The notes beneath the pieces are model-generated. The model saw nothing but the letters and a program-made list of their open reading frames with translations, had not been told where the DNA came from and ran no database searches. DNA of 38,061 bases from Methanomicrobiaceae archaeon. GTDB lineage: Archaea > Halobacteriota > Methanomicrobia > Methanomicrobiales > Methanomicrobiaceae. Of the stretch, positions 21,429 to 36,782 are shown one piece after another. The translations under genes were made by a program, and so were the position numbers. Location: positions 145,909-183,969 of the forward strand of contig JARVGI010000003.1 in NCBI GenBank assembly GCA_029762625.1. The letters run 5' to 3'. Position 1 is the first letter of the stretch. The number at the start of each line of letters is the position of its first letter.

Positions 21429-21448
21429 TCAAGGTAAGTTACCTTGAT
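21428..21448. promoter_or_regulatory. Perfect 21-bp palindrome upstream of the surface-protein cluster
   Basis: ATCAAGGTAA and TTACCTTGAT are perfect 10-base arms with a single central G. It lies about 50-68 bases before the expected start site of the 21589 gene (TATA at about 21465-21475). The one-base centre suits a dimeric DNA-binding protein better than a full hairpin, though an 8-bp stem with a 5-base loop could also end the upstream transcript. Confidence 0.6.
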
Positions 21449-21502: not shown

Positions 21503-21588
21503 CAATCAGGTATACAGATGACGGGAGCGGATACCGGAGGGAGGCCGTTGCCCTGAACGTGTGCCGGATTGACACTACAGGTGGGCAT

Positions 21589-24500
21589 GTGTCACAAAAT
21601 TGCAGGATTATTCTCGCCGGTCTTCTCCTTGTATTGGTCGCCGCCCCGGGGGCACTGGCGGGCACCACCGAGGTGACCCTCACCCGGCTGGCATTCGACG
21701 GGGAGACCGTCCTCGAGCAGAGAACGGTCGACTATGCCTGGATGGAGGCCAAACTCCCCGTCATGGGAGACGGGGTGACCCACTACTACCACCAGGGCCC
21801 GGTGTTCGTGGACGATCCCGACCCTGCGGTGGAAGAGCAGCTGCGCTGGAACCCCGAAGAGGACCAGAACGTCCTCGAGAAGGACTACGGCGCGGTGAAG
21901 GGAACGAACGCAAAAGACCTCTGCGATCTCGTCGGCGGCATGGACGAGGGCGACGAGGTGAAGTTCATCGCCGCCGACGGCTGGTCCAAGTGGTTCGCCT
22001 ACCAGAACGTCTACGAGTACTCGTCCCGGGAGGGCCCGATTGTGCTCACCTGGTGGCGCCCCGACCAGGGCTACGTCTCCGAGGGCTACGCGATGGGGAT
22101 GCGAATGGTCTGGTTCGCCGACGACTCAACCAATCCCTTCGGCGTCCACGCTTTTGGGGTCTGGGACTGGCATGAAGCCGCCGATGAGGAGTACTGGTAC
22201 TACTACTACGGCTCCCCCAGCGAAGCCTATCCCACCACCACCGGGCTCTCGGGAATGTATATCTCCGAGATCATCATCTACAGCGATGATGCGCCTACGG
22301 GGAGCATCGCCGTCTCCTCCTCGCCCGGTGGGGCCCGCGTGCTTATCGACGGCGACGATTCCGGCTCTACCACCAACTGCACCGTCCCCGATCTGGAGAC
22401 GGGGATGTACTCGGTCTCGGTGGAGAAGGAGGGATACGAGATCCCGGAGGAGAGGAATGTCGAAGTGGAGCTCAATGTGGCTTTCGAGGTCCATTTCGAT
22501 CTTGTACCTCTCAAAGGAAGCCTCACCGTCGCCTCCGAGCCCACCGGCGCTGCAATCTCTCTCGACGGCGTGGATACGGGCATGGAGACCGAGGCTACTC
22601 TGGAGGATATCCCGGCCGGAGAGCACACCATTGTCCTGCACAAGGAAGGATACGAGGACGCCCGGGAATCGGTGATGGTGGTGGGGGAGCAGGACACGGA
22701 AGTCTTTATCGAGCTCATCCCCGTGGCCGGGGATGCGGGAGATGCCGGGGGCGGTGATGGCGGGAGCAGTTCGGGATTCACCGGCAAATCACTCTCCCAA
22801 TCACTGAGCGCAAGCCTGAACGGAACCATTTCCGTCGTCAGGAGTGCCGAAGATGCCGTGATTATGGAGGAGGGGGACGCTGCCGCATACACCCTTCCGG
22901 TATCGATCCACGCCGGTACCACGCCCGCGCTGGGACGGCTGTACCTTTATGCCACGGAGGGGAAAGGCTCCTCGGGAAAGGGCCTCAAACCCTCCTTTTC
23001 CGTTTGCTTCAACGGCAAAGAGGTCCACCCCGTTCGATCGTACTCTGATATCATGGGCAGCATGTATACCGGCAGCATCGCATCCACATCCTGCTACGAT
23101 GTCACCTCGATGCTCGCAGAATCGGGTGATTACACCGTGGATGTGGTCTGCACGGGCCCGGAAGGTATCGAATGCCTCGTCTACGGCGCGGCGCTGGTGG
23201 GTGTTTTCGAGGGTGCATCGCAGCCGTCCATCACCTACTGGATCGATGAGGGTTGCGACGTGATCCTCTCCGATCCCGCTGAAGGCACCATGCCGGAGGA
23301 ATGCATCTCCACCGCGCCCTTCACGGGTGTTATCGTCCCCTCGGCTATCGCCAACGCCACGCTCACCGTCGTCAGCACGGGCCCGGGCTATGAGGAGGAT
23401 GATTCACATACGTTTGCCATGAACGGCTGGGAATGGGCAAACCCCCTCGCCGGTTCGGGGGAGGGCATCGGCATCTTCGCGCGGGATGTCAAACCGCACC
23501 TTCTCCCGTCCGGCAATGCGGCATTCGTGCAGAGCACCGATCCTTCGGGGGCGCTCCTCGAACACCGGGCGGCAATCCTTGTGGCGGAGCATGCATCCGG
23601 TCCGGACACAACCGTGGAGGGCAATTCCGGCATCGCGCCTGCGGCAACACCTCCGGCCGCCGGGAGCACCGGATCGCCGGAAGGGGCCGGATCTGTCTAC
23701 GCGCTTGCGGATGCGCGGTGTGCGATGAACTCTACGCATCTTCGTCTATGCGCGGGGAACATCACCCTGTTCATTCCCCGGGATGCCCGGATTGTCGATG
23801 CGAGAGGACACGCGGTGGAGCAGTGCACGATAGAGCATTCCGCTCCGGGACGCGACGGCTCATACCTCTTGTTTGCGATCGGACCCAACGACGCAGGTTC
23901 CGACACTCCCATGATTCTGGCCGCATCCCCGCCAGATGGATCAGGCGCTCCTTCGGGACGCCCTCCCCTCGCATTTGCCGCTCACAACGCGTCCACTGGC
24001 GAGTGGGACCTGCTCCCCACCTTCACCGATCCAGAATCTGGCTTGCTGTATTGCCGGATTTCAGGATTCGGGAATTTTTCTCTTCGCGCGCAGGTGCCGC
24101 CGGAGAGTGTGGCACCTGATTCCCCCACGCTCATCCAGTCGTTCGTTGCCTTCTTGAAAGGTATCCTGCAGCTGCTGTTCGGCGAAACCCACGCCGCCGA
24201 TCCGCAGGCGGCACCCCCGTTCCATCTTCCAGTGGAGGGGAGCGTCTGCACCCTGTCGCAGATCGCCCCGGACCGTGTGGAGGGCGCCCCTGCGGCGCCT
24301 GAAGGCCCCTTCGATCTCACCATCCGGTCGGTTCCCGCCGGCGCCCTGATCGAGCTCAACGGCACCTATACGGGCCGGACGACACCCTCCACCTTCGCGT
24401 CGTTCCCCGAAGGATCGCATGATCTCAGGCTTGTGCTCGACGGGTTCACCACCTTTGAGCAGCAATTCCAGCTCACCGGCGACCTTGTGCTGTGCACGGA

Positions 24501-25482
24501 ACTGTATCCTTCCGGGCGCGCAGCGCTGGAGAAACTGAAATTCGGGACGCCGGGCGATTGGCCGGATCTGATCGAGACCGGCGGGGTCTCTGTCGTCTCC
24601 GAACCTGCGCGCGCCGCCATCTACATCGATGGACGGGACAGCGGGTTCGTGACCCCCCATGTGGTGGCGGGACTGCGGGAAGGGGTCCATACCATCAGGG
24701 TGAAAAAGGAGGGGACATCCTTTGCATCTGATTCCATGGCCGTCTGGGTGTATCCCGGGTGCCTCTCTGCGTGCTCGCTCAATGCCGCCGAATTGAGGCT
24801 GGAAAAGGATATCACCGTGGTTTCGGATGATTTCGAGGGAGATCCCTTTACGGTCGACGGGGCCTACCGGCAGTACACCATCCCGAAAGCCCATACCATT
24901 ACCAGCAGCTCCCCCGTAGTGAATGTCCTGGACGGGGACCGGTTCCTTTCGTTCAGTTGCCTCGGGGTCCGTGACGGGTCCGAGATCCGGGTCAAAGGCG
25001 GCGAAACGCAGTTCGCCGGGGTGATGGTGGAGTCGAATCCGGCGGGCGCCGAGATATTCATCGACGGGTTCAGGACAGGGATCTGCACGCCCTCCCTCAT
25101 CGATAATGTCTCCGAGGGCTACCATCACATTGCGGTTTCCCGGCCAGGCTTCCTCCCTGCGGGAAAGAAGATCCACGTGATCGACGATCGTTTGAGGGAT
25201 TGCGACGCAAACGTCCGCTTTTCCCTTACGCCCTATCCCTATGGCTCCCTGAATATCACCAGCAGCCCGCCGGGTGCGAAAATCTACCTCTATGACCGGT
25301 ACACGGGGCTGACCACGCCTCATACGTTCACCTATATGGGGATCGGGAGGTACAGGGTCAGGGTTCTGGGCGACGTTGCGAGTGCCGAGCGCGACGATGT
25401 GGTGGTGCATCCCTATGCGGTCCGTCACTGTCATTTCGACCTTGCTGCCGGCCGACGGGACCGTTTTCCGCGCCCTGTGTAA
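21589..25482 (+). CDS. Large secreted W-domain protein with DUF3344-like and six PEGA domains
   Basis: Exported surface protein of 1297 residues. I start at GTG 21589, after AGGTG, which gives a clean signal peptide ending in ALAG; the frame extends to GTG 21559. Order: W domain (about 25-232, with WMEAKLP, GDGVTHYYHQGP, LCDLVGGMDEGD and WDWHE), PEGA 1 (237-309), PEGA 2 (310-377), a Gly/Ser linker, a DUF3344-like segment (404-690, with SCYDVTSMLAESGDYTVDVV), a region with ITLFIPRDARIVDARG, then PEGA 3-6 at about 909-975, 999-1060, 1144-1205 and 1219-1290. PEGA repeats are small beta sandwiches common in archaeal surface proteins. No C-terminal membrane helix is present, so anchoring is unclear. 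It is first in the cluster of W-domain genes; its function is unknown. Confidence 0.85.
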   Translation: MSQNCRIILAGLLLVLVAAPGALAGTTEVTLTRLAFDGETVLEQRTVDYAWMEAKLPVMGDGVTHYYHQGPVFVDDPDPAVEEQLRWNPEEDQNVLEKDYGAVKGTNAKDLCDLVGGMDEGDEVKFIAADGWSKWFAYQNVYEYSSREGPIVLTWWRPDQGYVSEGYAMGMRMVWFADDSTNPFGVHAFGVWDWHEAADEEYWYYYYGSPSEAYPTTTGLSGMYISEIIIYSDDAPTGSIAVSSSPGGARVLIDGDDSGSTTNCTVPDLETGMYSVSVEKEGYEIPEERNVEVELNVAFEVHFDLVPLKGSLTVASEPTGAAISLDGVDTGMETEATLEDIPAGEHTIVLHKEGYEDARESVMVVGEQDTEVFIELIPVAGDAGDAGGGDGGSSSGFTGKSLSQSLSASLNGTISVVRSAEDAVIMEEGDAAAYTLPVSIHAGTTPALGRLYLYATEGKGSSGKGLKPSFSVCFNGKEVHPVRSYSDIMGSMYTGSIASTSCYDVTSMLAESGDYTVDVVCTGPEGIECLVYGAALVGVFEGASQPSITYWIDEGCDVILSDPAEGTMPEECISTAPFTGVIVPSAIANATLTVVSTGPGYEEDDSHTFAMNGWEWANPLAGSGEGIGIFARDVKPHLLPSGNAAFVQSTDPSGALLEHRAAILVAEHASGPDTTVEGNSGIAPAATPPAAGSTGSPEGAGSVYALADARCAMNSTHLRLCAGNITLFIPRDARIVDARGHAVEQCTIEHSAPGRDGSYLLFAIGPNDAGSDTPMILAASPPDGSGAPSGRPPLAFAAHNASTGEWDLLPTFTDPESGLLYCRISGFGNFSLRAQVPPESVAPDSPTLIQSFVAFLKGILQLLFGETHAADPQAAPPFHLPVEGSVCTLSQIAPDRVEGAPAAPEGPFDLTIRSVPAGALIELNGTYTGRTTPSTFASFPEGSHDLRLVLDGFTTFEQQFQLTGDLVLCTELYPSGRAALEKLKFGTPGDWPDLIETGGVSVVSEPARAAIYIDGRDSGFVTPHVVAGLREGVHTIRVKKEGTSFASDSMAVWVYPGCLSACSLNAAELRLEKDITVVSDDFEGDPFTVDGAYRQYTIPKAHTITSSSPVVNVLDGDRFLSFSCLGVRDGSEIRVKGGETQFAGVMVESNPAGAEIFIDGFRTGICTPSLIDNVSEGYHHIAVSRPGFLPAGKKIHVIDDRLRDCDANVRFSLTPYPYGSLNITSSPPGAKIYLYDRYTGLTTPHTFTYMGIGRYRVRVLGDVASAERDDVVVHPYAVRHCHFDLAAGRRDRFPRPV

Positions 25483-25524: not shown

Positions 25525-25610
25525 CGTGCTCCGACTGATGGTTACCACCGCCCCGTCATCTCCCGGTACGGGGCGTGTGGTTCTGCTGACGATTTGATCT
25601 GGTGTGCGCG

Positions 25611-26450
25611 ATGATGTCCGCTCTGTTAAAAGTATGCTGCCTGTTCCTGATCCTCGCTGCGTTTGCATCGTCCCCTGCGATGGGGGCCACCGGTGAAGTG
25701 CGCGTGGTGAAATACGCGTCGGATGCGTCAACGATTCTGGCCGAGACCACGGTCGATGTTGCCTGGATGGAAGCGAACCTCCCCGTGCTGGGCGACGGGG
25801 CGACCCACTACTACTTCCAGGGTCCGGTCTTTGAGGACGCGTGGGACGATCTGCACCCGGGCGAGCCCTACGATCCATGGAACCCGGATGAGGATGTCAA
25901 TTGCGTGCCCAACAAGGATCTCGGTGCGGTGAAAGGCACGAATGTCGCCGATCTCTGCACGCTCGTGGGCGGGATGGACGAGGGGGACATTGTCGTCATA
26001 CGCTCCGAGGATGGGTTCTCCAAGCGCTTTCCCTATGAAAACGTCTACGATCCCGATCCCCGGCAGGGCCCGATGGGGCTGACCTGGTACACCACCGGAT
26101 CGGAGGAGAGCGGGCAGTACAGCGGCTATGCCCCCGATGAGTACCTGACCGGCATGCGGCTCGTGATGTTTGCAGACGGTTCCACCAACCCCTATGGGGC
26201 GCACGTGTTCGGCGTGTGGGACATGCACGAGTGCGTTGCAGAGGAGTACTGGCATTACTACTACCAGAGCCAGACCGACCGCTACCCCTCGACAGGCGGC
26301 TTTACGGTCAAATATGTGAGCGAGGTCGCCATCATCGAGGGGGAGGCGGCTGATGAGGCATCGTCGCCGGCCTCGCCCGGGCCGGGTGTCGTGGCCGTTA
26401 TCGTTGCGGCCGGTGCGGGAACCTGGCTTGCATGGGCCCGGCGGGACTAA
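25611..26450 (+). CDS. W-domain surface protein with C-terminal membrane anchor
   Basis: Exported protein of 279 residues. Signal peptide to about residue 25 (LFLILAAFASSPAMGA), then a single W domain covering nearly the whole chain: WMEANLP, GDGATHYYFQGP, GAVKGTNVADLCTLVGG, ENVYDPDPRQGP, MRLVMFADGSTNP, WDMHECVAEEYWHYYY and the closing FTVKYVSEVAI. The tail is a linker, then PGPGVVAVIVAAGAGTWLAW and basic residues, resembling a PGF-CTERM-type archaeosortase tail without the exact PGF. ATG 25611 is chosen because GGTG lies six bases before it; GTG 25602 and ATG 25614 are alternatives. It follows the PEGA gene by about 130 bases. It is the simplest member of the family, so it defines the domain limits. 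Function unknown. Confidence 0.83.
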   Translation: MMSALLKVCCLFLILAAFASSPAMGATGEVRVVKYASDASTILAETTVDVAWMEANLPVLGDGATHYYFQGPVFEDAWDDLHPGEPYDPWNPDEDVNCVPNKDLGAVKGTNVADLCTLVGGMDEGDIVVIRSEDGFSKRFPYENVYDPDPRQGPMGLTWYTTGSEESGQYSGYAPDEYLTGMRLVMFADGSTNPYGAHVFGVWDMHECVAEEYWHYYYQSQTDRYPSTGGFTVKYVSEVAIIEGEAADEASSPASPGPGVVAVIVAAGAGTWLAWARRD

Positions 26451-26532: not shown

Positions 26533-26608
26533 CATATGCGCAGAAGCACCACACATCGAACGGGTATCCGGGAATGGTGCCTGCAACTATCATCGTTGAG
26601 GTATGTCA

Positions 26609-27445
26609 ATGCGTATTACAATTATCAAATGTACCTTTTTTCTTCTCCTTCTTTCCTGTTGTGCGGTCGCGGTGCAGGCCGCCCCCACAAGCGACGTGTA
26701 CGTGGTGAAGTTTGCAGAGGATGGCGAGACTATTCTGGACGAGATCACCGTCGATTATGCGTGGATGGAGGCCAATCTCCCCGTGCACGGCGACGGGGTG
26801 ACCCACTATTACCACCAGGGGCCTGTCTTCGTGGATGACCCCGAAGGGCGCTGGGACGTGAACGAAACGACCAACTTCAAGGACCATGGCGCAGTCAAGG
26901 GGACCGATATCAGGGACCTCTGCGACCTGGTGGGCGGCATGGAGCCCGGCGACGAGGTGATGGTGCATGCCGGGGACGGCTACCATGTCCAGTTCGCCTA
27001 CGAGAACGTCTACGATCCCGACCCGCGGCAGGGCCCAATCGTGCTGACCTGGTGCAACGGCGAGGACGCGGAGATAGGAGAGCGGCAGGGCGTGGGCTAT
27101 CCACCCGAGTTCTACGCGGGGATGCGCCTCGTATTCTTCGCGGACAATTCCACCAATGCGGAGGGCCTGCACGTCTTCGGCAACAATGACATGCGGGAGA
27201 CCATGCCCGAGGCCGCGGTGCATTTCTACGAGATCTACCCCTCCACCAACGGCTATACCGTCAAGTGGGTGGACGAGATCCGGGTGTACGCCGGCGGGTA
27301 CGGGGGTGCCACCGATGTACCGGTGAAGTCGCTTTCCGCGGAGGAGACGGACGCCCCGTCGACCCCCCTCTCTTCGTTCACGGTCCTCGTTGCACTGGGA
27401 TGCGCAGCGGGGGCTGTCGCCCTGTTGCGGGGGAGAGGCCGGTGA
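26609..27445 (+). CDS. W-domain surface protein, first gene of the WtpA operon
   Basis: Exported protein of 278 residues, a paralogue of the 25611 protein. Signal peptide of about 22 residues (FFLLLLSCCAVAVQA), W domain with WMEANLP, GDGVTHYYHQGP, DLCDLVGGMEPGD, ENVYDPDPRQGP, MRLVFFADNSTN, NDMRETMP and YTVKWVDEIRVY. The WDMHE histidine is replaced by arginine (DMRE). The tail is TPLSSFTVLVALGCAAGAVALL plus RGRGR, a C-terminal anchor. I start at ATG 26609, six bases after GAGGT; ATG 26603 is possible. The stop overlaps the next gene's GTG start (GTGA), so it is coupled to the sulfite-oxidase-fold lipoprotein and WtpA genes. Its linkage to an oxyanion-binding protein is the best contextual clue for the family. 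Confidence 0.83.
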   Translation: MRITIIKCTFFLLLLSCCAVAVQAAPTSDVYVVKFAEDGETILDEITVDYAWMEANLPVHGDGVTHYYHQGPVFVDDPEGRWDVNETTNFKDHGAVKGTDIRDLCDLVGGMEPGDEVMVHAGDGYHVQFAYENVYDPDPRQGPIVLTWCNGEDAEIGERQGVGYPPEFYAGMRLVFFADNSTNAEGLHVFGNNDMRETMPEAAVHFYEIYPSTNGYTVKWVDEIRVYAGGYGGATDVPVKSLSAEETDAPSTPLSSFTVLVALGCAAGAVALLRGRGR

Positions 27446-28035
27446 TTACCTGGCGGCGTTGCTGCATTCCGGCGCTTTCCGTGTTCTTCGTCTGCACCCT
27501 CTGCCTGCTGTGCGGGTGCGTGTCGGAACCCGCGGACGAGCGCGCAGATCCCATCCGGGGCGATCTCACCGTTGCCGAGATGATCAACGGCACCGAGACG
27601 CAGAGCGTGGTGCTGTCCTACGACGAGGTGCTGGCTATGCCGGCCTATACCGCCCACGGCTATGCGGTCTCCACGGTGGGGATCAAGTTCGGGCCCTACG
27701 TGTGCACCGGTGTTGCCCTCCCCGATCTTCTCGAGGTGGTGGGCGGCGCGGAGGAGGGCGACCAGGTCTATGTCTCCGCTCCCGACGGCTACCTCTGGGT
27801 CTTCGACTACGACCAGCTGCACGGGGAGAGTTTCATCACCCTCGATGAGAATCTCCGGGAGATCCCCTCCCCGCCGCTCACGGTCATTTTGATGTACGAG
27901 CAGGACGGCGCACCCCTCTCCTACAACGACGGCGCGCCCTTCCGGGTCGCCATCACCTCCGCAGAGGAGGGCGTGATCACCGAGGGGAGCTCGTGGGTGA
28001 AGTGGGTGGACCGGATCGAGGTGCACCGCCAGTGA
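27442..28035 (+). CDS. Lipoprotein with sulfite-oxidase-like (molybdopterin-binding) fold
   Basis: Exported lipoprotein of 197 residues; the signal ends in LLCGC. The rest fits a compact version of the oxidoreductase molybdopterin-binding fold: a strand-rich start (TQSVVLSYDEVLAMP), then YVCTGVALPDLLEVVGG, EEGDQVYVSAPDGYLWVFDY, PPLTVILMYEQDGAPLSYNDGAPFRV, and WVKWVDRIEV, the typical ending. The cysteine that ligates Mo in sulfite oxidase is not at its usual place (before the GVxLxDLL stretch I see VSTVGIKFG), so it probably does not hold a catalytic Mo centre; it may be a cofactor-free relative. GTG start overlaps the W-domain gene and its stop overlaps wtpA's GTG. A role in W/Mo handling is inferred from the neighbours. 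Confidence 0.75.
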   Translation: MITWRRCCIPALSVFFVCTLCLLCGCVSEPADERADPIRGDLTVAEMINGTETQSVVLSYDEVLAMPAYTAHGYAVSTVGIKFGPYVCTGVALPDLLEVVGGAEEGDQVYVSAPDGYLWVFDYDQLHGESFITLDENLREIPSPPLTVILMYEQDGAPLSYNDGAPFRVAITSAEEGVITEGSSWVKWVDRIEVHRQ

Positions 28036-29033
28036 CCGGACGACTGGTCCCGGCGGCCCTCGCCTGCCTCTGCCTGCTGCTCTCGGCGGGGTGCCTGGAC
28101 GGTTCGGCGCAGGAGCGGATCACCCTGAAGGTGATCCCGGCGGGGAGCCTGCTCGGTCCTTTCGCAACCATCGAGGAGGATTTCGAGGCTCTGCACCCGG
28201 AGGTGGATGTGCAGATCGAGGGGCACGGGAGCATCCAGGCGGTGCGCCAGGTGACCGACCTGCACCGGGCGGTGGACGTAGTGGCGGTGGCGGACGAGTC
28301 CCTCATCCCTGACATGATGTACCGCCCCATGGAGGGAAGCGACGTCTTCTACGCCGATGAGTATGCCCGGATCGGCACCAACGAGGTGGTGATCGCCTAC
28401 ACCGGCGAGAGCCTCTACGCCGATGAGATCGATGCCGCGAACTGGTACGCAGTGCTGGCCCGCCCGGACGTGCGGGTCGGGTTTTCCAACCCCATGCTGG
28501 ACGCCTGCGGGTACCGGACCTTTATGGTGGTGGTGCTCGCCGAAGACTACTACGATCAGGAGGGGCTCTTCGATGCCCTCATCGGCGATCATCTGCAGTC
28601 GCCGGTGACCGTGACCGCCGACAACGGCGTCACGAGGGTGGCGCTGCCCGAGTTCCTCAAGCCCGCCACCGACAAACTCGCCATCCGCGACGGCAGCATC
28701 TACCTCCTCTCCCTCCTCGAGGCGGGGGGCATCGATTACGCCTTCGAGTACAAAAGCGTCGCCATCGAACACGGGCTTTCATGGGTGGATCTTCCGCCCG
28801 AGGTGGATCTCGGATCGGGGGAGCTGGCCGATGCGTATGCCGCGGTCGAGGTGAAACTCTCCTTCGCCCGCTTCTCCTCCATCGGCGACGAGCGGCAGGG
28901 CCGGCCCATCGTCTACGCCATCACGGTGCCCAACAACGCCCCCCACCCGGCGATGGCGGAGGAGTTCGTGGCCTTCGTGGAAGAGCGGTTTGCGGAGGGA
29001 CGGTACGGATGGCCCGAGCCCATGGCGCACTGA
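28032..29033 (+). CDS. wtpA: Tungstate/molybdate-binding lipoprotein (WtpA family)
   Basis: Substrate-binding protein for tungstate and molybdate uptake, 333 residues, anchored by a lipobox (LSAGC at residues 18-22). Family marks: ITLKVIPAGSLLGPF, VDVQIEGHGSIQAVRQVTDL, VDVVAVADESLIPDMM, EVVIAYTGESLYADEI, NWYAVLARPDVRVGFSNP, DACGYRTFMVVVLAEDYY and YAFEYKSVAIEHGLSWVDLP, all of which match WtpA proteins. Start is GTG 28032, overlapping the preceding stop (GTGA). In most genomes wtpA leads to the permease and ATPase genes wtpB and wtpC; none follows here, so it is an orphan binding protein unless the transporter is elsewhere. Methanogens need W or Mo for formylmethanofuran dehydrogenase. The neighbouring sulfite-oxidase-fold and W-domain genes are cotranscribed, which is unusual. 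Confidence 0.92.
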   Translation: MTGRLVPAALACLCLLLSAGCLDGSAQERITLKVIPAGSLLGPFATIEEDFEALHPEVDVQIEGHGSIQAVRQVTDLHRAVDVVAVADESLIPDMMYRPMEGSDVFYADEYARIGTNEVVIAYTGESLYADEIDAANWYAVLARPDVRVGFSNPMLDACGYRTFMVVVLAEDYYDQEGLFDALIGDHLQSPVTVTADNGVTRVALPEFLKPATDKLAIRDGSIYLLSLLEAGGIDYAFEYKSVAIEHGLSWVDLPPEVDLGSGELADAYAAVEVKLSFARFSSIGDERQGRPIVYAITVPNNAPHPAMAEEFVAFVEERFAEGRYGWPEPMAH

Positions 29034-29096: not shown

Positions 29097-30767
29097 ATGC
29101 GCCATTCGATCGCATACGTGGGAGTGTGCTGCATCCTCCTCCTTCTCCTCGTCCCTCCGGCCTGCGCCGACCGGGCGCCCGCGGGAGGATCGGGGTGGGT
29201 GCTGACCCTCGTCGGCAACCGGACCGTCTCCCTGTCCCAGGAGGAGTTCACCCGGGCAGAGGAGGCATCCGGCGTCCCGTATACGGACGGTGAGGGAGAT
29301 GTCTATCGCGGCCTGCCCCTGACCCGCCTCATCGGCCTCGTCGATGACGGAAATGATGCGTCCTATAACACCACACTCGCAGAGGCGGGATACTCGGTCA
29401 CCGTGCGAGCGACCGACTGGCACGACCGGATCATTTCCAGCACCGATATCACCCCGGACGGCTTTCTGGTCGCCAGTACCCGCAACGGAGCGCCGCTCCC
29501 GGCGCAGCAGGGCGATATCAAGATAGCCCCGCTTCTCCTCGTCGGGCCGGACGTTTCCGCAGCGAGGGAGATCGGCAACATCATGGACATCACCCTGTCG
29601 GGGCCGGCGATCACCGGTCTTCCCGCCGGCCCCTCCTGCACCGTCACCATCCTCCGGCGCGAGAGCGACGGCGGACGCATCCTGAACGCCACCACGGTCT
29701 CCTGCTCCTGGATGGAGGAGCATTGTGCGGTCCACGGGGATACGGAGGCGCCCTACCGGTTCCAGGGGCCGACTTTCGACACCGGTGATCGCTGGAATCC
29801 CGCCGAGACCAAAAACCTCGCCAAGGTCGAGGAGGTCGTGCAGGGAACGACGCTCCGTGACCTCTGCGACCTCGTCGGCGGGATGCGGGAGGGTGACGAA
29901 CTCCGCATGACGGCGACCGATGGCTATGTGGTCGAACTGATGTACGACACGATCTACGCCCCGAAGCCCGCACAGGGAACGGCCATTCTCGCATGGTGGA
30001 CCGAGAAGCAGGGCCATACCCCGACCTATACCGGGGGTCCTGCCCTGTTCTTCCTTGCCGATGACCACACCTTCGGCAACCAGGACATGAGGGAGTGCAT
30101 CGACGAGCGGTACTGGCGGTTTTACTGGTGCCAGGGAACGGAGTATCCGTCCGCGGCGGGCCTCGCCATAAGAAATGTCGATACCCTGGAGATCTATCCC
30201 CGCCGGTTCATGGAATGGGAGCTTGTGCTGGAAGGCCATCTCTCCTCGACCATCAGCAAAAGGGAGTTTGAACAGGGCGTGAGCTGCGGCGAGCGCGCCC
30301 GCGGCCACGCCGTTGCCTATACGGATACGGACGGGCGGGTCTGGACCGGGATGCCCCTCTACATGCTTGCCGGCTGGGTCGATGACGACTGCCAGCATGA
30401 TGAAAACCTCGTCGGCAACCGGGCGTACAACACGACCCTCGCACGGGACAATGCCTATACCGTGGTGGTTGCCGGCAATGCGAGCGAGTCCGCGGCGTTC
30501 GATGCCCGCGACATCATGAAGAGCCACGGGTACATCATGGCATATGCCGTCGACGGGGCCGCCTTTGCGCCCGGCGACGGCAACTGGCCCCTGACGCTCG
30601 TCGGCAGCGATGTCCCTGCCGATGACCGGGTACGCGGGGTCAGGACCATCACGCTTGTCTTTGCGGGACCGGGCGACGGCGTTCCTGCATCACCGTGCTC
30701 CTGGCTCTGGGCCGTTGCGGCGCTCGCCGCAGCACTCCTCTTCGAACGAAGAGCCCGATCCCGGTGA
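29097..30767 (+). CDS. Three-domain surface protein: sulfite-oxidase-like, W domain, sulfite-oxidase-like
   Basis: Exported membrane-anchored protein of 556 residues with A-W-A order. Signal peptide to about residue 24. First A domain about 32-165 (WVLTLVGNRTVSLSQEEF, YNTTLAEAGYSVTV, IAPLLLVGPDV), W domain about 180-360 (LCDLVGGMREGDELRM, GNQDMRECIDERYWRFYW) and second A domain about 365-520 (WELVLEGHLSSTISKREF, VWTGMPLYMLAGWVDDD, WPLTLVGSDV). A hydrophobic tail (WLWAVAALAAALLFERR) anchors it. The A domains look like the oxidoreductase molybdopterin-binding fold in miniature; no cysteine is at the Mo position. In this W domain the GDGVTHYY motif is degenerate (GDTEAPYRFQGP), so its site may be changed. 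It follows wtpA by 63 bases with its own GGGGTG ribosome site and is likely in the same unit. Confidence 0.8.
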   Translation: MRHSIAYVGVCCILLLLLVPPACADRAPAGGSGWVLTLVGNRTVSLSQEEFTRAEEASGVPYTDGEGDVYRGLPLTRLIGLVDDGNDASYNTTLAEAGYSVTVRATDWHDRIISSTDITPDGFLVASTRNGAPLPAQQGDIKIAPLLLVGPDVSAAREIGNIMDITLSGPAITGLPAGPSCTVTILRRESDGGRILNATTVSCSWMEEHCAVHGDTEAPYRFQGPTFDTGDRWNPAETKNLAKVEEVVQGTTLRDLCDLVGGMREGDELRMTATDGYVVELMYDTIYAPKPAQGTAILAWWTEKQGHTPTYTGGPALFFLADDHTFGNQDMRECIDERYWRFYWCQGTEYPSAAGLAIRNVDTLEIYPRRFMEWELVLEGHLSSTISKREFEQGVSCGERARGHAVAYTDTDGRVWTGMPLYMLAGWVDDDCQHDENLVGNRAYNTTLARDNAYTVVVAGNASESAAFDARDIMKSHGYIMAYAVDGAAFAPGDGNWPLTLVGSDVPADDRVRGVRTITLVFAGPGDGVPASPCSWLWAVAALAAALLFERRARSR

Positions 30768-31213: not shown

Positions 31214-31508
31214 TATATCAGTTTGAGCCCGTGCGGCATTTCTCGGGAGCATATGCCATACCGGGAATGCCATATGCAGGACTGATCGTTGCCGAAAGGT
31301 GGCCTGAAGTGGGTGATGCCATGAGGAATGTGAAAACGAACGCAGAATCGGCGTGGGTGTCGCTGCCGCGTATCATGCGGTCGGCCGTGTCTCCGGGTGC
31401 ATGCGCTGAGCGGGCAGGCGACGGAAGCCGATCTTCCTTCCTGCGGCGATGGAGGACCGCAGGCATTCCTCAGGGGGCGCTCTTTTCGGCGAATGTGAGG
31501 TGATTGAA
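31214..31508 (+). ncRNA. Long conserved 5' leader (candidate cis-regulatory RNA), copy 1
   Basis: About 295 untranslated bases between promoter and the start codon TTG 31509. Blocks shared with the leader at 37548-37863: TATCAGTTTGA (31216), CGTGCGG (31230), ATATGCAGGACTGATC (31272-31287; 15 of 16 bases), and CGCTCTTTTCGGCGAA (31478-31493). The first two are the same distance from the promoter box in both copies. A 7-bp hairpin at 31440-31463 (CCTGCGG / CCGCAGG) presents a CGATGGAGGA loop; GCATATG / CATATGC at 31249-31277 forms another. Short open frames in it are not conserved in copy 2, so it is not coding. Function inferred. Confidence 0.6.
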
Positions 31509-34500
31509 TTGACGAACAGGCTAACCATTGCGCTGGTATTTGTGCTGTGCATCGTGCTTTTCGCAGCGCCGGCAGCGGCATATACCACAGAATTGACCGT
31601 AACGAAATACGACCCCTACGGTGCCGTGATCGACACCCGGACCATCACCTGGGAGGAGATGAGGGACACGCTGCCCGTCTATGGCGACGGTGTCACGCAT
31701 TACTACATGCACGGGCCCACCTTCGATGATTCCAGTTTCGATGCCCTGTGGGACCCCATCGAGGAGGTGAACATTGACACCCGCGACTATGGTGCCGCCA
31801 TGGGAACCGACGTCAAGGACCTGTGTGATCTCGTCGGCGGGGCGGAACCCGGCGATACCGTCCAGATCAAGGCTGCCGATAACTTCAACAAATGGTTCGA
31901 CTACGAGGACGTTTACCACCCCGAGCCCGAGCAGGGCACGATGGTGATCACCTGGTACACTGCCGATACTGCAGATGGTGATGATGGCTCTGTCGGAGAC
32001 GGCCACTACAGTAACGGTATGCGGCTCCTGTTCTTTGCCGATACGAGCACGAACCCGTGGGGCTGGAATGTATACGGGAACTGGGACATGCACGAGACCC
32101 TGCCCGCCTCTCGCTGGCACTACTACTATGGGGGAGGGTTCTGGCCGTCCAGCAGCGGGCTCTCGGTCAAATACGTCGCCCAGATCAACATCTACCAGCC
32201 CAATCTCATCTCCTGCGACGCCTCAGGAAACCCCGTGGACAGTTTTGCGCCCGGCGAGACGGTCTACGTGAAGGGGATGGGACTGGATGCGGAAACCAGC
32301 TACACCCTCTGGATACAGGGCGAGCCGGTGCTGCTCACTCCGCTGGACAAACTCGAACGCCCGGTTATCGGCGGTACATATGTCCTCAGCACGGCGAACA
32401 ACCCGTCCGGTGCCCAGGAGACGGTAGCCACGGACGCCAGCGGTGATTTCGCCCCGGTCGCGATCTGGACTGCGGCGGAGACGCTGGGTAAATACGATAT
32501 CGTGGCCGATAACCTGGCCCGGGGAACGGTGGGAACCTATGGTTCCTACGATGAAATCGATAATCCCGGCTGGGAGGGCTTCGAGGTGGCGGTTCCAACC
32601 GTGCCGCCCGTGGCTGGCTTCAGTGCCGGCGCCACGTCCGGGGTCGCGCCCCTCACCGTGAGTTTCACCGACGCATCGACCGGCACCGCTCCGCTCGTCT
32701 ATGCGTGGGACTTCGAGGATGACGGTACGGTTGATTCCACCGAGCGGAACCCGGTCCATGCATACACGGATGCCGGCACCTATACCGTGAACCTGACCGT
32801 GACGAATGCGTACGGCAGCGACACGGAGACGAAAACCGATTATGTCACGGTGTACGCAATGCTGCCGGTGCACAACCTGAACACCGGCGCTCGCTACCTG
32901 ACCATCCAGGAGGCCGTCGATGCCGCCTCCGCTGGAGACGTGCTTGAGGTCGGTGACGGCTCCTACACCGAGAACGTGCTCGTCGACAAAGCCCTCACCA
33001 TCAGGAGCGAGAACGGCACCGCAGCGGTGACGGTGACCGCCGCATCGCCCGCGCTGCCGGTCTTCGACATCGATGCCGACGGTGTCACCATCGAGGGCTT
33101 CACGGTCCGGGGACCGACCGACACGCACGTCGCCGGGATCGAGATCGTCGGGTACGATAACTGCCGGGTCACCGCAAACGACTGCGCGGGCTGCTACAAC
33201 GGCATCCACATCGGCGGTGACGGGACGGGCAACATCGTGACGGACAATTACTGCCACGAGAACACCCGGCGCGGGATCAGCGTCCGGGACACCGCATACG
33301 GGAACTCCATCACCGGAAACACCGTCGAGAACAATGCCGATGCCGGTATCTGCATCAAGGATATGACGCACGACAACGTGCTCTGGCTGAACGACGTTAT
33401 CAATAACCGCGTCGAGATCCTGACCGCAAACACGGCGCACTCCCCTGAACCCCTCACCTACTCCTACCAGGGCGGCGTCCACACCGGCCATCTCGGCAAC
33501 TACTACTATGACTACAGCGGCACCGATGCCGATGGGGACGGCGTGGGCACCCCGTCCTACAGTTACGGGACCTACGGCGATGATTACCCGCTGATGGCCC
33601 CCTGCTCGAACTACGCCGAGACCGTCCTTTTCTTCTGGGGCCCGTACCTCACCGGGACGACCACCACCGCGACGGTCGTGAATGTCAAAACACCCGAGGC
33701 TGCGACGGTGACCGTCGAGTATGCCGATGACGCCTACTACACCGCACACGGCGGGTACGAGCACAGCGCCACCGGCGAGGCGGGGGCAGAACTGCACCAT
33801 ATCGAACTCACCGGGCTCTCCCCCGGCACTCTCTACCACTACCGGGTGGTGAGAAGCGGCGCGGCAACAGCAGACCTGCACGTCCGGACGCTGCCGGAGA
33901 GCGGCACGTTCAGCTTCGTCGCCTACGGGGATTCACAGGACCAGCTCCCGCAGTTCTCGCAGGATGAGCGCCATAAGCTCGTTGCGGACCGGATCGCAGG
34001 CGAGGAGGACGTCGCATTTCTGCTGCACAGCGGCGACCTGGTGAACGACGCGACGCTGACCACCGACTGGGACCGCTTCTTCTCCGCCGGCGGGGCAATG
34101 CTCGCCAACGTGACGATCTTCCCGGCGATGGGCAACCACGAGAAGAACGCCACCCTCTACTACGATATCTTCGGCGTGCCGGAGTACTATTCGTTTGATG
34201 CCGGTAATGCGCACTTCACGCTGCTGGACAGCAACGACTGGGCCTGGCCGAAGATGGACGAGCAAACGGCCTGGCTTGAAGCCGACCTCGCCACGCCCGC
34301 CGACTGGAACTTCGTGACCTTCCACCACCCGCCCTACACCTCGGAGGAATCGCACTGGGGCGGCTATACAAATATCCGCGAGGAGTGGGAGGACATATTC
34401 ATCGCAAACGGTGTGGATGTGGTCACGAACGGCGAGGTGCATGTCTATGAGCGCTACGAGGTAAACGGCATCACCTACATGGTGCTCGGTATCGGCGGCG

Positions 34501-36782
34501 GACCGTCCTATCCGATCGCCGAGGAGAAGATCGAGGGCTACCAGAACAGCCTGGAGAACACGCTGGGCTACGCCAAGGTGACCATCGACCCGCAGGCGGG
34601 GACCGCCACCGTGGAGATCAAACCGGTCGCCGAGATCGCGACCGACGGCAGCGGGGTCGCGTACATCTATCCCGAGGGAAGCGTCTATGAGACGTTCGTG
34701 CTCGAACTGCCGACAGGGCCGAGGATCTGGTACGTCGACGACGACGGCGGCGCGGACTTTGCCACCATCCAGGCGGCGGTGGATGCCGCAAAGGCCGGTG
34801 ACATGGTGGTCGTAAAAGACGGTCACTATATCGAGAATGTCGATATATCGAAGAGAATTACACTCGAATCAGAACACGGGGCGGCGTCGACCATCATCGA
34901 GACCGCAAACCCCATGAGCGTCGATTCCGTGATCGAGGTGACCGCTGATTTCGTGAACATCACCGGGTTCACCCTGACGATGGCGGATGTCGGCGGATCG
35001 GGCATCTACCTCATCGATGCGGATAACTGCACCATCACCGATACGGTGAGCGAGACGAACGGATGGGGCATACGCCTGAAAAATGCAACGCATAATGTCA
35101 TCCGGAACACCACCAATATCGACTGTTACCGGGGCATTGCGCTCTACGAGGGTTCGAACGAGAACCTCATCGAGGGCAACGAAGTGAGCTGGAATGCGGA
35201 CTACGGCATCTGGCTCGAAGGATCCCATGCCAACACTATCGTCCGGAACAATGCATCGGGTGCGGAAGGAGGCGGGGCATTCAACCTCCGTGCATCGCAC
35301 GACAACATCATCGCCGAGAACGTGCTCGACTGCTACGATCCGGAAGGCCCCCACGGGCTCACCCTCGAGTGGGGATCGACCAACAACCGCATCTACCTGA
35401 ACAATTTCAAGAACACCATCCTGCCCGCCAACGGGGATGCGACCGGCAACCTCTGGGTATCCCCGGAGCCGGTGGACTATACCTGCGGGTCTGCCGCCTT
35501 CAGCAGTCTCCTCGGCAATTACTGGGATCGCTATACCGGTGCGGACCTCGATGGCAACGGTATCGGGGACACCCCCTATATCGTCCCGGACGGCCTCGGC
35601 ACCGACTCCTATCCGCTGATGGGCGAGTGGCAGGACGGCGAGATCCTGTACTCCGCCCCGCCGGCCCCGACCGTGGACTTCAGCGCGAACGTGACCTCGG
35701 GCGATGCCCCGCTCACCGTGCAGTTCACCGACCAGTCCCTCGGTGAAGATATGGTCGACTGGGCCTGGGACTTCGATAGCGACGGCACGGTGGATGCCAC
35801 CGCACGCAATCCGATCTGCACCTACAACACCCCCGGCACTTACACGGTCTCCCTCACGGTCACCAATGCCGGCGGCAGCAGTGATGATGAGGTGAAGGTC
35901 GACTTCATCACGGTGAATGTTCCCCCGGTCCCCCCGACTGCCGCCTTCACCGCGGATGTGACCTCCGGCGACGCTCCTCTCACCGTCCGGTTCACCGATG
36001 CATCAACCGGTGACGCTCCCCTCAGCTGGTCCTGGGATTTCGACAATGACGGTATCATCGACAGCACCGAGCAGAACCCCACATTCACCTACGCCACCGC
36101 GGGCACCTATACGGTCTCCCTCACCGTCACGAATATTGCAGGCAGTGATTCCGAGGTGAAGGAAGGCTACATCATCGTCACCGCACCTCCCGTGCTGACG
36201 GCGATCACGGTATCGCCCGATGCCGCCACGCTCCTGGCAGGTGAATCGCAGCAGTTCAGCGCGACCGCCTACGATCAGTATGGCACTGAAATGACCGGGC
36301 TCACCTTCAGCTGGTCGAGTTCGGATGCGTCGGTCGGCACGATTACCGCGGACGGGTCCTTCACGGCGGTGCAGGCCGGCACCACCACCGTCACCGCGAC
36401 GAGCGGCACCGTTTCTGGCTCTGCTGAGGTCAGCGTGATGGAATCCGGAGCTGCAACCCCGCTTGATAGGGCCATAGATCTCGAGATGTACGTGGGCGGG
36501 CTCGATCTGCCTGCCGGTATCACGAATGCCCTGCTGGCAAAACTCGACGGCGTCGTCGATGGTCTCAGGGCCATGGAGGATGCGGAATCCGGCCCTGGTG
36601 AGAACAAGCCCGGCAACGCTGCGAACCACGGTGCACCCGGTCTGAAACCGATCCAGAACAGGCTCACCGCATTCACCAACCAGGTCGAGGCGCTCCAGGG
36701 GAAGAAGATCCCGGCAGAGACCGCCGACGAGCTGCTCCGGATGGCAGAAGATCTTCTTGCCCTGCTTGCCGATTCCGGGTAA
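31509..36782 (+). CDS. Giant multidomain surface protein: W domain, PKD, NosD-type helices, metallophosphatase, Big
   Basis: Secreted protein of 1757 residues. Start TTG 31509, six bases after GAGGTGA, gives the signal MTNRLTIALVFVLCIVLF..., parallel to the 37864 gene. Order: W domain (27-226, with WEEMRDTLPVYGDGVTHYY and WDMHETLPASRWHYYY), a beta domain (230-360), PKD 1 (365-450), right-handed parallel beta-helix of NosD type (455-695), a fibronectin-like segment (705-795), calcineurin-like phosphoesterase (800-1031, with YGDSQD, LLHSGDLVND, MGNHE, FHHPPYTS, NGEVHVYER), second beta-helix (1073-1365), PKD 2 and 3 (1385-1558), a Big-type domain (1563-1645) and a helical C-terminus (1651-1757). 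The phosphatase motif normally GHxH reads GEVH, so one metal ligand is changed. It has no C-terminal anchor. The domains suggest a cell-surface or matrix protein. Confidence 0.88.
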   Translation: MTNRLTIALVFVLCIVLFAAPAAAYTTELTVTKYDPYGAVIDTRTITWEEMRDTLPVYGDGVTHYYMHGPTFDDSSFDALWDPIEEVNIDTRDYGAAMGTDVKDLCDLVGGAEPGDTVQIKAADNFNKWFDYEDVYHPEPEQGTMVITWYTADTADGDDGSVGDGHYSNGMRLLFFADTSTNPWGWNVYGNWDMHETLPASRWHYYYGGGFWPSSSGLSVKYVAQINIYQPNLISCDASGNPVDSFAPGETVYVKGMGLDAETSYTLWIQGEPVLLTPLDKLERPVIGGTYVLSTANNPSGAQETVATDASGDFAPVAIWTAAETLGKYDIVADNLARGTVGTYGSYDEIDNPGWEGFEVAVPTVPPVAGFSAGATSGVAPLTVSFTDASTGTAPLVYAWDFEDDGTVDSTERNPVHAYTDAGTYTVNLTVTNAYGSDTETKTDYVTVYAMLPVHNLNTGARYLTIQEAVDAASAGDVLEVGDGSYTENVLVDKALTIRSENGTAAVTVTAASPALPVFDIDADGVTIEGFTVRGPTDTHVAGIEIVGYDNCRVTANDCAGCYNGIHIGGDGTGNIVTDNYCHENTRRGISVRDTAYGNSITGNTVENNADAGICIKDMTHDNVLWLNDVINNRVEILTANTAHSPEPLTYSYQGGVHTGHLGNYYYDYSGTDADGDGVGTPSYSYGTYGDDYPLMAPCSNYAETVLFFWGPYLTGTTTTATVVNVKTPEAATVTVEYADDAYYTAHGGYEHSATGEAGAELHHIELTGLSPGTLYHYRVVRSGAATADLHVRTLPESGTFSFVAYGDSQDQLPQFSQDERHKLVADRIAGEEDVAFLLHSGDLVNDATLTTDWDRFFSAGGAMLANVTIFPAMGNHEKNATLYYDIFGVPEYYSFDAGNAHFTLLDSNDWAWPKMDEQTAWLEADLATPADWNFVTFHHPPYTSEESHWGGYTNIREEWEDIFIANGVDVVTNGEVHVYERYEVNGITYMVLGIGGGPSYPIAEEKIEGYQNSLENTLGYAKVTIDPQAGTATVEIKPVAEIATDGSGVAYIYPEGSVYETFVLELPTGPRIWYVDDDGGADFATIQAAVDAAKAGDMVVVKDGHYIENVDISKRITLESEHGAASTIIETANPMSVDSVIEVTADFVNITGFTLTMADVGGSGIYLIDADNCTITDTVSETNGWGIRLKNATHNVIRNTTNIDCYRGIALYEGSNENLIEGNEVSWNADYGIWLEGSHANTIVRNNASGAEGGGAFNLRASHDNIIAENVLDCYDPEGPHGLTLEWGSTNNRIYLNNFKNTILPANGDATGNLWVSPEPVDYTCGSAAFSSLLGNYWDRYTGADLDGNGIGDTPYIVPDGLGTDSYPLMGEWQDGEILYSAPPAPTVDFSANVTSGDAPLTVQFTDQSLGEDMVDWAWDFDSDGTVDATARNPICTYNTPGTYTVSLTVTNAGGSSDDEVKVDFITVNVPPVPPTAAFTADVTSGDAPLTVRFTDASTGDAPLSWSWDFDNDGIIDSTEQNPTFTYATAGTYTVSLTVTNIAGSDSEVKEGYIIVTAPPVLTAITVSPDAATLLAGESQQFSATAYDQYGTEMTGLTFSWSSSDASVGTITADGSFTAVQAGTTTVTATSGTVSGSAEVSVMESGAATPLDRAIDLEMYVGGLDLPAGITNALLAKLDGVVDGLRAMEDAESGPGENKPGNAANHGAPGLKPIQNRLTAFTNQVEALQGKKIPAETADELLRMAEDLLALLADSG

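Follow-up and report, generated by a model that had tools for sequence, protein, structure and literature searches.

A conserved three-gene surface module that probably belongs to a divergent Wtp-type tungstate/molybdate importer in Methanomicrobiales

The 38,061-nucleotide stretch of methanogen DNA analysed here (the window) encodes a predicted tungstate/molybdate-binding lipoprotein of the WtpA family (WtpA2), preceded by two genes for exported proteins of the sulfite oxidase (SUOX) fold, a W-domain protein (W1) and a compact lipoprotein (SOlip; Table 1). The genes wtpB and wtpC are absent beside this trio, which raises the question of what the binding protein serves, and why it is coupled to such partners. 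W1, SOlip and WtpA2 are arranged head to tail, and at both junctions a GTG start overlaps the preceding TGA stop by 4 bp; the linkage by GTGA overlaps noted in the first-pass annotation is thus confirmed, as are the open frames. Translation of W1 can begin at either of two positions, 26603 or the ATG at 26609, the latter being the start chosen in that annotation. SOlip and WtpA2 have lipoboxes (LLCGC and LLSAGC, respectively), and W1 combines a signal peptide with a hydrophobic C-terminus that ends in a basic tail, so that all three proteins are expected to be anchored outside the cell. Recognizable sequence motifs are GDGxTHYYHQGPVF in W1, and GHGSIQ, RDGS and FEYKSVA in WtpA2.

Table 1. Features of the trio and its surroundings, in window coordinates.
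Feature	Position	Strand	Assignment	Basis
Large surface protein	21559..25482	+	W-domain/PEGA/DUF3344 protein	ORF; domain matches
W0	25602..26450	+	W-domain paralogue upstream of W1	ORF; W-domain match
W1	26603..27445	+	secreted SUOX/PruR-fold W-domain protein	ORF; signal peptide; C-terminal membrane anchor
W1–SOlip overlap	27442..27445	+	start/stop overlap, GTGA	read from sequence
SOlip	27442..28035	+	compact SUOX-fold lipoprotein	PF00174 match; model; Cys counts
SOlip–WtpA2 overlap	28032..28035	+	start/stop overlap, GTGA	read from sequence
WtpA2	28032..29033	+	putative tungstate/molybdate-binding lipoprotein, divergent WtpA clade	TIGR03730; tree; ligand columns
SUOX-W-SUOX	29097..30767	+	three-domain surface protein	PF00174 N-terminal, below cut-off; W-domain match G000:C22:175515-176141
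Large surface protein	31449..36782	+	W-domain/PKD/NosD/metallophosphatase protein	ORF; domain matches

The gene for the SUOX-W-SUOX protein starts 63 bp downstream of WtpA2 and probably belongs to the same transcription unit; the N-terminal PF00174 match of its product, at 18.8 bits, lies below the cut-off of 24. No riboswitch or known RNA was found in the window, and a comparison of 9- and 10-mers between the trio region and the tup, wtp and mod promoters of the host returned only 9-mers at chance level, and no shared operator. A perfect 19-bp palindrome, TCAAGGTAAGTTACCTTGA, is present upstream of the W-domain/PEGA gene (window 21429-21447). It was considered as a regulon marker and rejected, being the single exact copy in the genome.

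The absence of wtpB and wtpC applies only to the locus. On contig C4 the host carries a second, ordinary wtpA with wtpB and wtpC behind it, so that WtpA2 lacks partner genes at its own locus but not in the genome; the host has standard tungsten/molybdenum uptake, and the WtpA of the window is an additional copy. The host cluster (L009:3582-11425) contains, in a row, tupABC, an amino-acid-kinase-like (AAK) gene, whose product we take to resemble molybdenum-storage proteins, wtpABC, and a ModA-type gene. SUOX-fold partners were not seen at the host's own tup and mod genes. A WtpA without WtpBC, the starting point of the first-pass annotation, is consequently not supported as the defining feature of the system, and the same follows from relatives in which wtpBC directly follows the trio.

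The gene order was inspected in 40 loci from across Methanomicrobiales. Every one of them has W1 immediately before SOlip, and essentially all have WtpA2 immediately after it, with one clear exception (G099); in one genome a further W gene is inserted between SOlip and WtpA2. By an automatic check of listed coordinates, a WtpA lies within 400 bp of SOlip in at least 64 of 72 genomes, and several of the remaining eight are accounted for, for instance by the end of a contig or by the additional W gene. With this arrangement in almost every genome examined that carries SOlip, the order of the trio is far beyond chance.

The trio is also linked to wtpBC, tupABC, modABC and the AAK gene. Nine of the 40 trios run directly into wtpB and wtpC on the same strand; in two more loci these genes are located just upstream, and in others nearby on the opposite strand. 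Operons of the Methanolinea type have the order tupA, W, W1, SOlip, WtpA2, wtpB, wtpC, and W proteins. WtpB was found in all 44 genomes checked. Four Methanoculleus-type genomes (G004, G010, G022 and G100) show a reciprocal situation: WtpA2 of the trio is the sole WtpA found, and wtpBC occurs without wtpA in the tungsten/molybdenum cluster, either next to tupABC and the AAK gene or at most a few kb away from them. Of all the genomic evidence, these reciprocal orphans speak most strongly for a function of WtpA2 together with WtpBC, if need be in trans. The idea that the trio could be the sole tungsten/molybdenum importer of a cell was discarded; no near-complete genome of this kind was found, TupB is present also in G005 and G162, and G187, which has no TupA, TupB or ModA matches, is only 82% complete. 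In Methanoregulaceae, TupA and WtpA additionally occur as fused tandem lipoproteins of about 650 residues (frames of 638–673 residues; e.g., L057:4018-5967), and in L057 and L133 such a fusion is directly upstream of the trio operon.

SOlip is carried by 72 of the 199 Methanomicrobiales genomes, representing 21 of 38 genera, nearly always as a single copy, and is absent from two genomes of the host's own genus. The check for co-occurrence across Methanomicrobiales thus shows the trio in dozens of genomes, and an occurrence confined to a single genome is excluded. Among 84,980 species genomes scanned, 55 loci were found, all in Methanomicrobiales or unplaced Euryarchaeota except for one metagenome-assembled genome labelled Clostridiaceae. 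Carriers of the trio in culture include Methanocalculus chunghsingensis, Methanogenium marinum and Methanocorpusculum parvum. The W1, SOlip and WtpA2 of that contig (L145) are close to the Methanoculleus copies, and it is probably a mis-binned methanogen contig. A phylum-wide profile search located the W1–SOlip pair in two further families of the phylum, where WtpA2 again follows, in some loci with wtpB/wtpC (L193, L195 and L198), a ModA/ModB cluster (L197) or an AAK gene (L194) nearby. No relatives of SOlip were found on plasmids.

Against TIGR03730, which has a cut-off of 242.75, WtpA2 reaches 328.9 bits; its relatives in the PDB are 3cfz, 3k6u and 2onk. In a quick tree of 77 proteins, 40 WtpA2 sequences form one clade (SH-aLRT 100) that is separate from ordinary WtpA and from the WtpA proteins in the PDB. 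The ligand columns were compared in the numbering of AfModA from A. fulgidus, which we take to differ by 28 from that of the 2onk chain. Pyrococcus furiosus WtpA has two carboxylate ligands, of which one Asp is essential for tungsten selectivity (PMC10221389). WtpA2 retains Asp153 (75/77), Tyr236 (76/77) and Ser70 (76/77), but at position 218, where the solved WtpA proteins use a Glu as carboxylate ligand, all 76 WtpA2 sequences with a residue in the column have Ser, and Ile235, which adjoins Tyr236, has given way to Glu or Asp in 76 of 77. Both changes are also present in 32 of 32 ordinary WtpA sequences sampled from Methanomicrobiales and so do not set WtpA2 apart from these; they would represent a change of the site throughout the order rather than a loss of function in WtpA2. 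Order-wide, in ordinary WtpA and WtpA2 together, Glu218 is exchanged for Ser or Ala in combination with Ile235 to Glu. It is plausible, judging from these columns, that Glu235 replaces Glu218 as the second carboxylate ligand of octahedral tungstate. The His in GHGSIQ is confined to WtpA2 and could indicate a different ligand. In WtpA2 numbering (start at 28032), the residues of interest are Asp157, Glu239 and His65.

The fold of the two partners is supported to different degrees. SOlip matches PF00174 with 38.1 bits (cut-off 24), and its model (pLDDT 92; Foldseek E 1e-5) matches YedY with a tungsten cofactor (1xdy), PruR (7kom), SoxC (2xts) and sulfite oxidase, the last of which is also matched by the SOlip profile against PDB sequences (2.9e-7). 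W1 has no family match in Pfam or NCBIfam, and its AlphaFold model is weaker (pLDDT 72; E 3e-4), with sulfite oxidase (3hbg) and PruR (7kom) as best matches; when profiles are compared, W1 matches SOlip with a probability of 97.6%. The proposal that two proteins of the trio share the molybdopterin-binding fold is in agreement with these models and with the profile match. Among 41 SOlip sequences, the lipobox Cys is the only conserved Cys, and SOlip can therefore not hold molybdenum in the manner of SUOX enzymes, which makes molybdoenzyme chemistry unlikely. Away from the trio, most W-domain genes lie among those of large surface proteins, without transporters, and W-domains were hence rejected as an indicator of ABC importers in general. 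In G069 (L200:2551-6092), the gene for a W-domain protein overlaps by 4 bp that of a binding protein of the SBP_bac_5 (Opp/Nik) type, behind which lie the genes for its ABC permease and ATPase, and a second importer type is thus coupled to a W-domain protein.

Taken together, there is a strong genomic case that the trio is linked to transport, and we consider it reasonably probable that its products form the outer portion of an ABC importer for tungstate/molybdate, a divergent member of the Wtp type with cofactor-free SUOX/PruR-fold surface partners. Alternative roles for these partners can be envisaged. An extracellular tungsten- or molybdenum-dependent oxidoreductase, supplied with metal by WtpA2, would agree with the SUOX fold and the PF00174 match, but the Mo-ligating Cys is missing from all SOlip rows and no redox partner gene was noticed in the loci, which leaves this role extremely improbable. 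Alternatively, the importer could be the same, with SUOX-fold partners that bind a pterin, be it tungstopterin or molybdopterin set free from enzymes or a simple pterin, either to scavenge tungsten or molybdenum from an extracellular cofactor or as a signal, and with WtpA2 taking the freed oxyanion. Structure matches to PruR (7kom, 7kp2, and 7rkb with neopterin) and to SUOX-family enzymes with molybdenum or tungsten cofactors point in this direction, as does the operon linkage of the SUOX-fold genes to WtpA2 and WtpBC, and PruR, with Trp160 and Tyr104 as pocket residues, also lacks the Mo Cys and yet binds pterins (PMC13259868). Similarity of fold alone, at 12–20% identity, does not establish a ligand, however, and no pterin-uptake or DcpA-type partner gene was seen in the loci; we regard pterin binding as unlikely. 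The specific case of cofactor-metal scavenging, in which SOlip and W1 would bind tungstopterin or molybdopterin from outside the cell, or a complex of pterin and metal, and pass the oxyanion to WtpA2 and WtpBC, is quite doubtful.

A re-purposed WtpA2, in a module that imports a ligand or oxyanion other than tungstate/molybdate, could explain the long separate clade, the loss of Glu218 and the specific His in the ligand loop, as well as the retention of ordinary WtpA in many genomes. This appears rather improbable when set against the conservation of the remaining ligand residues, the wtpBC partners, the reciprocal orphans, whose wtpBC neighbours tupABC and the AAK gene, and the presence of tupA in the operon of several genomes. 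Nor does a role without transport seem likely, whereby the trio would be a tungsten/molybdenum sensor or a surface-adhesion device and WtpA2 the receptor for the surrounding large W-domain proteins. The window locus and most trio loci have no wtpBC, and large W/PKD/NosD proteins are clustered at the locus, but in the loci examined no kinase, cyclase or regulator is coupled to the trio, wtpBC is inside the trio cluster in many genomes, and four genomes have wtpBC without wtpA elsewhere; such a device is very improbable. Of the surface system for tungsten/molybdenum capture, sensing or reaction that was originally proposed, what stands is a conserved three-gene unit tied to tungsten/molybdenum uptake, and the extracellular reaction is unlikely.

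As a putative Wtp-type uptake system, the trio has counterparts among known proteins, but is not identical to any of them. With WtpABC (P. furiosus WtpA; A. fulgidus ModA/WtpA, 2onk) it shares a passing TIGR03730 score, Asp153 and Tyr236, and the wtpB–wtpC genes that follow many trios, and it differs in the separate clade, the Ser at position 218 with Glu235, the GHGSIQ loop, the two SUOX-fold surface genes that precede WtpA2, and the frequent location of BC elsewhere in the genome. SOlip resembles PruR, a compact, exported (periplasmic) SUOX-fold protein of about 170 residues without Mo Cys (PMC13259868), with a TM-score of ~0.67 on the PruR length; unlike PruR, it is archaeal and lipid-anchored, has low sequence identity, and in the loci examined has W1 and WtpA2 as operon partners rather than DcpA/DTB regulators. 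YedY/MsrP, SoxC, SorT and sulfite oxidase share the fold and a C-terminal KWVxxIE signature with SOlip, which lacks the Mo Cys and the dimerisation domain, and is about half as long. TupABC and ModABC presumably act on the same substrates, and tupA is part of the trio operon in some genomes, but WtpA2 belongs to a different binding-protein family.

For the favoured Wtp-type system we envisage WtpA2 as a membrane-anchored binding lipoprotein that would take tungstate or molybdate outside the cell and dock on WtpBC. In the window genome, the oxyanion would be delivered in trans to WtpBC encoded on another contig, and in many relatives to WtpBC from the same operon; from the comparison of genomes, both the ligand, tungstate/molybdate, and the use of WtpBC in trans are our inference. 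Lipid-anchored SOlip and C-terminally anchored W1 would form a surface complex that probably adjoins WtpA2 at the outside of the membrane. There they probably capture or concentrate the ligand, be it the oxyanion or pterin-bound tungsten/molybdenum, and pass it on to WtpA2, or else they control the gating of the transporter.

No published description of the trio was found in the open-access papers searched. The divergent binding-protein clade and the dedicated SUOX-fold partners on a Wtp-type importer probably amount to an unrecognised accessory module. An orphan WtpA can accordingly be explained by wtpBC encoded elsewhere in the genome, which is of relevance for gene-by-gene annotation of transporters. 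Hydrogenotrophic methanogens need tungsten or molybdenum for formylmethanofuran dehydrogenase. If true, cofactor-metal scavenging would be a route to these metals in methanogens. The module would assign a definite role to some of the W-domain surface proteins, a group so far uncharacterised, and, with its SUOX/PruR fold that lacks a cofactor and is joined to an importer of metal oxyanions, it may offer a testable system for the capture of scarce tungsten and molybdenum by archaea.
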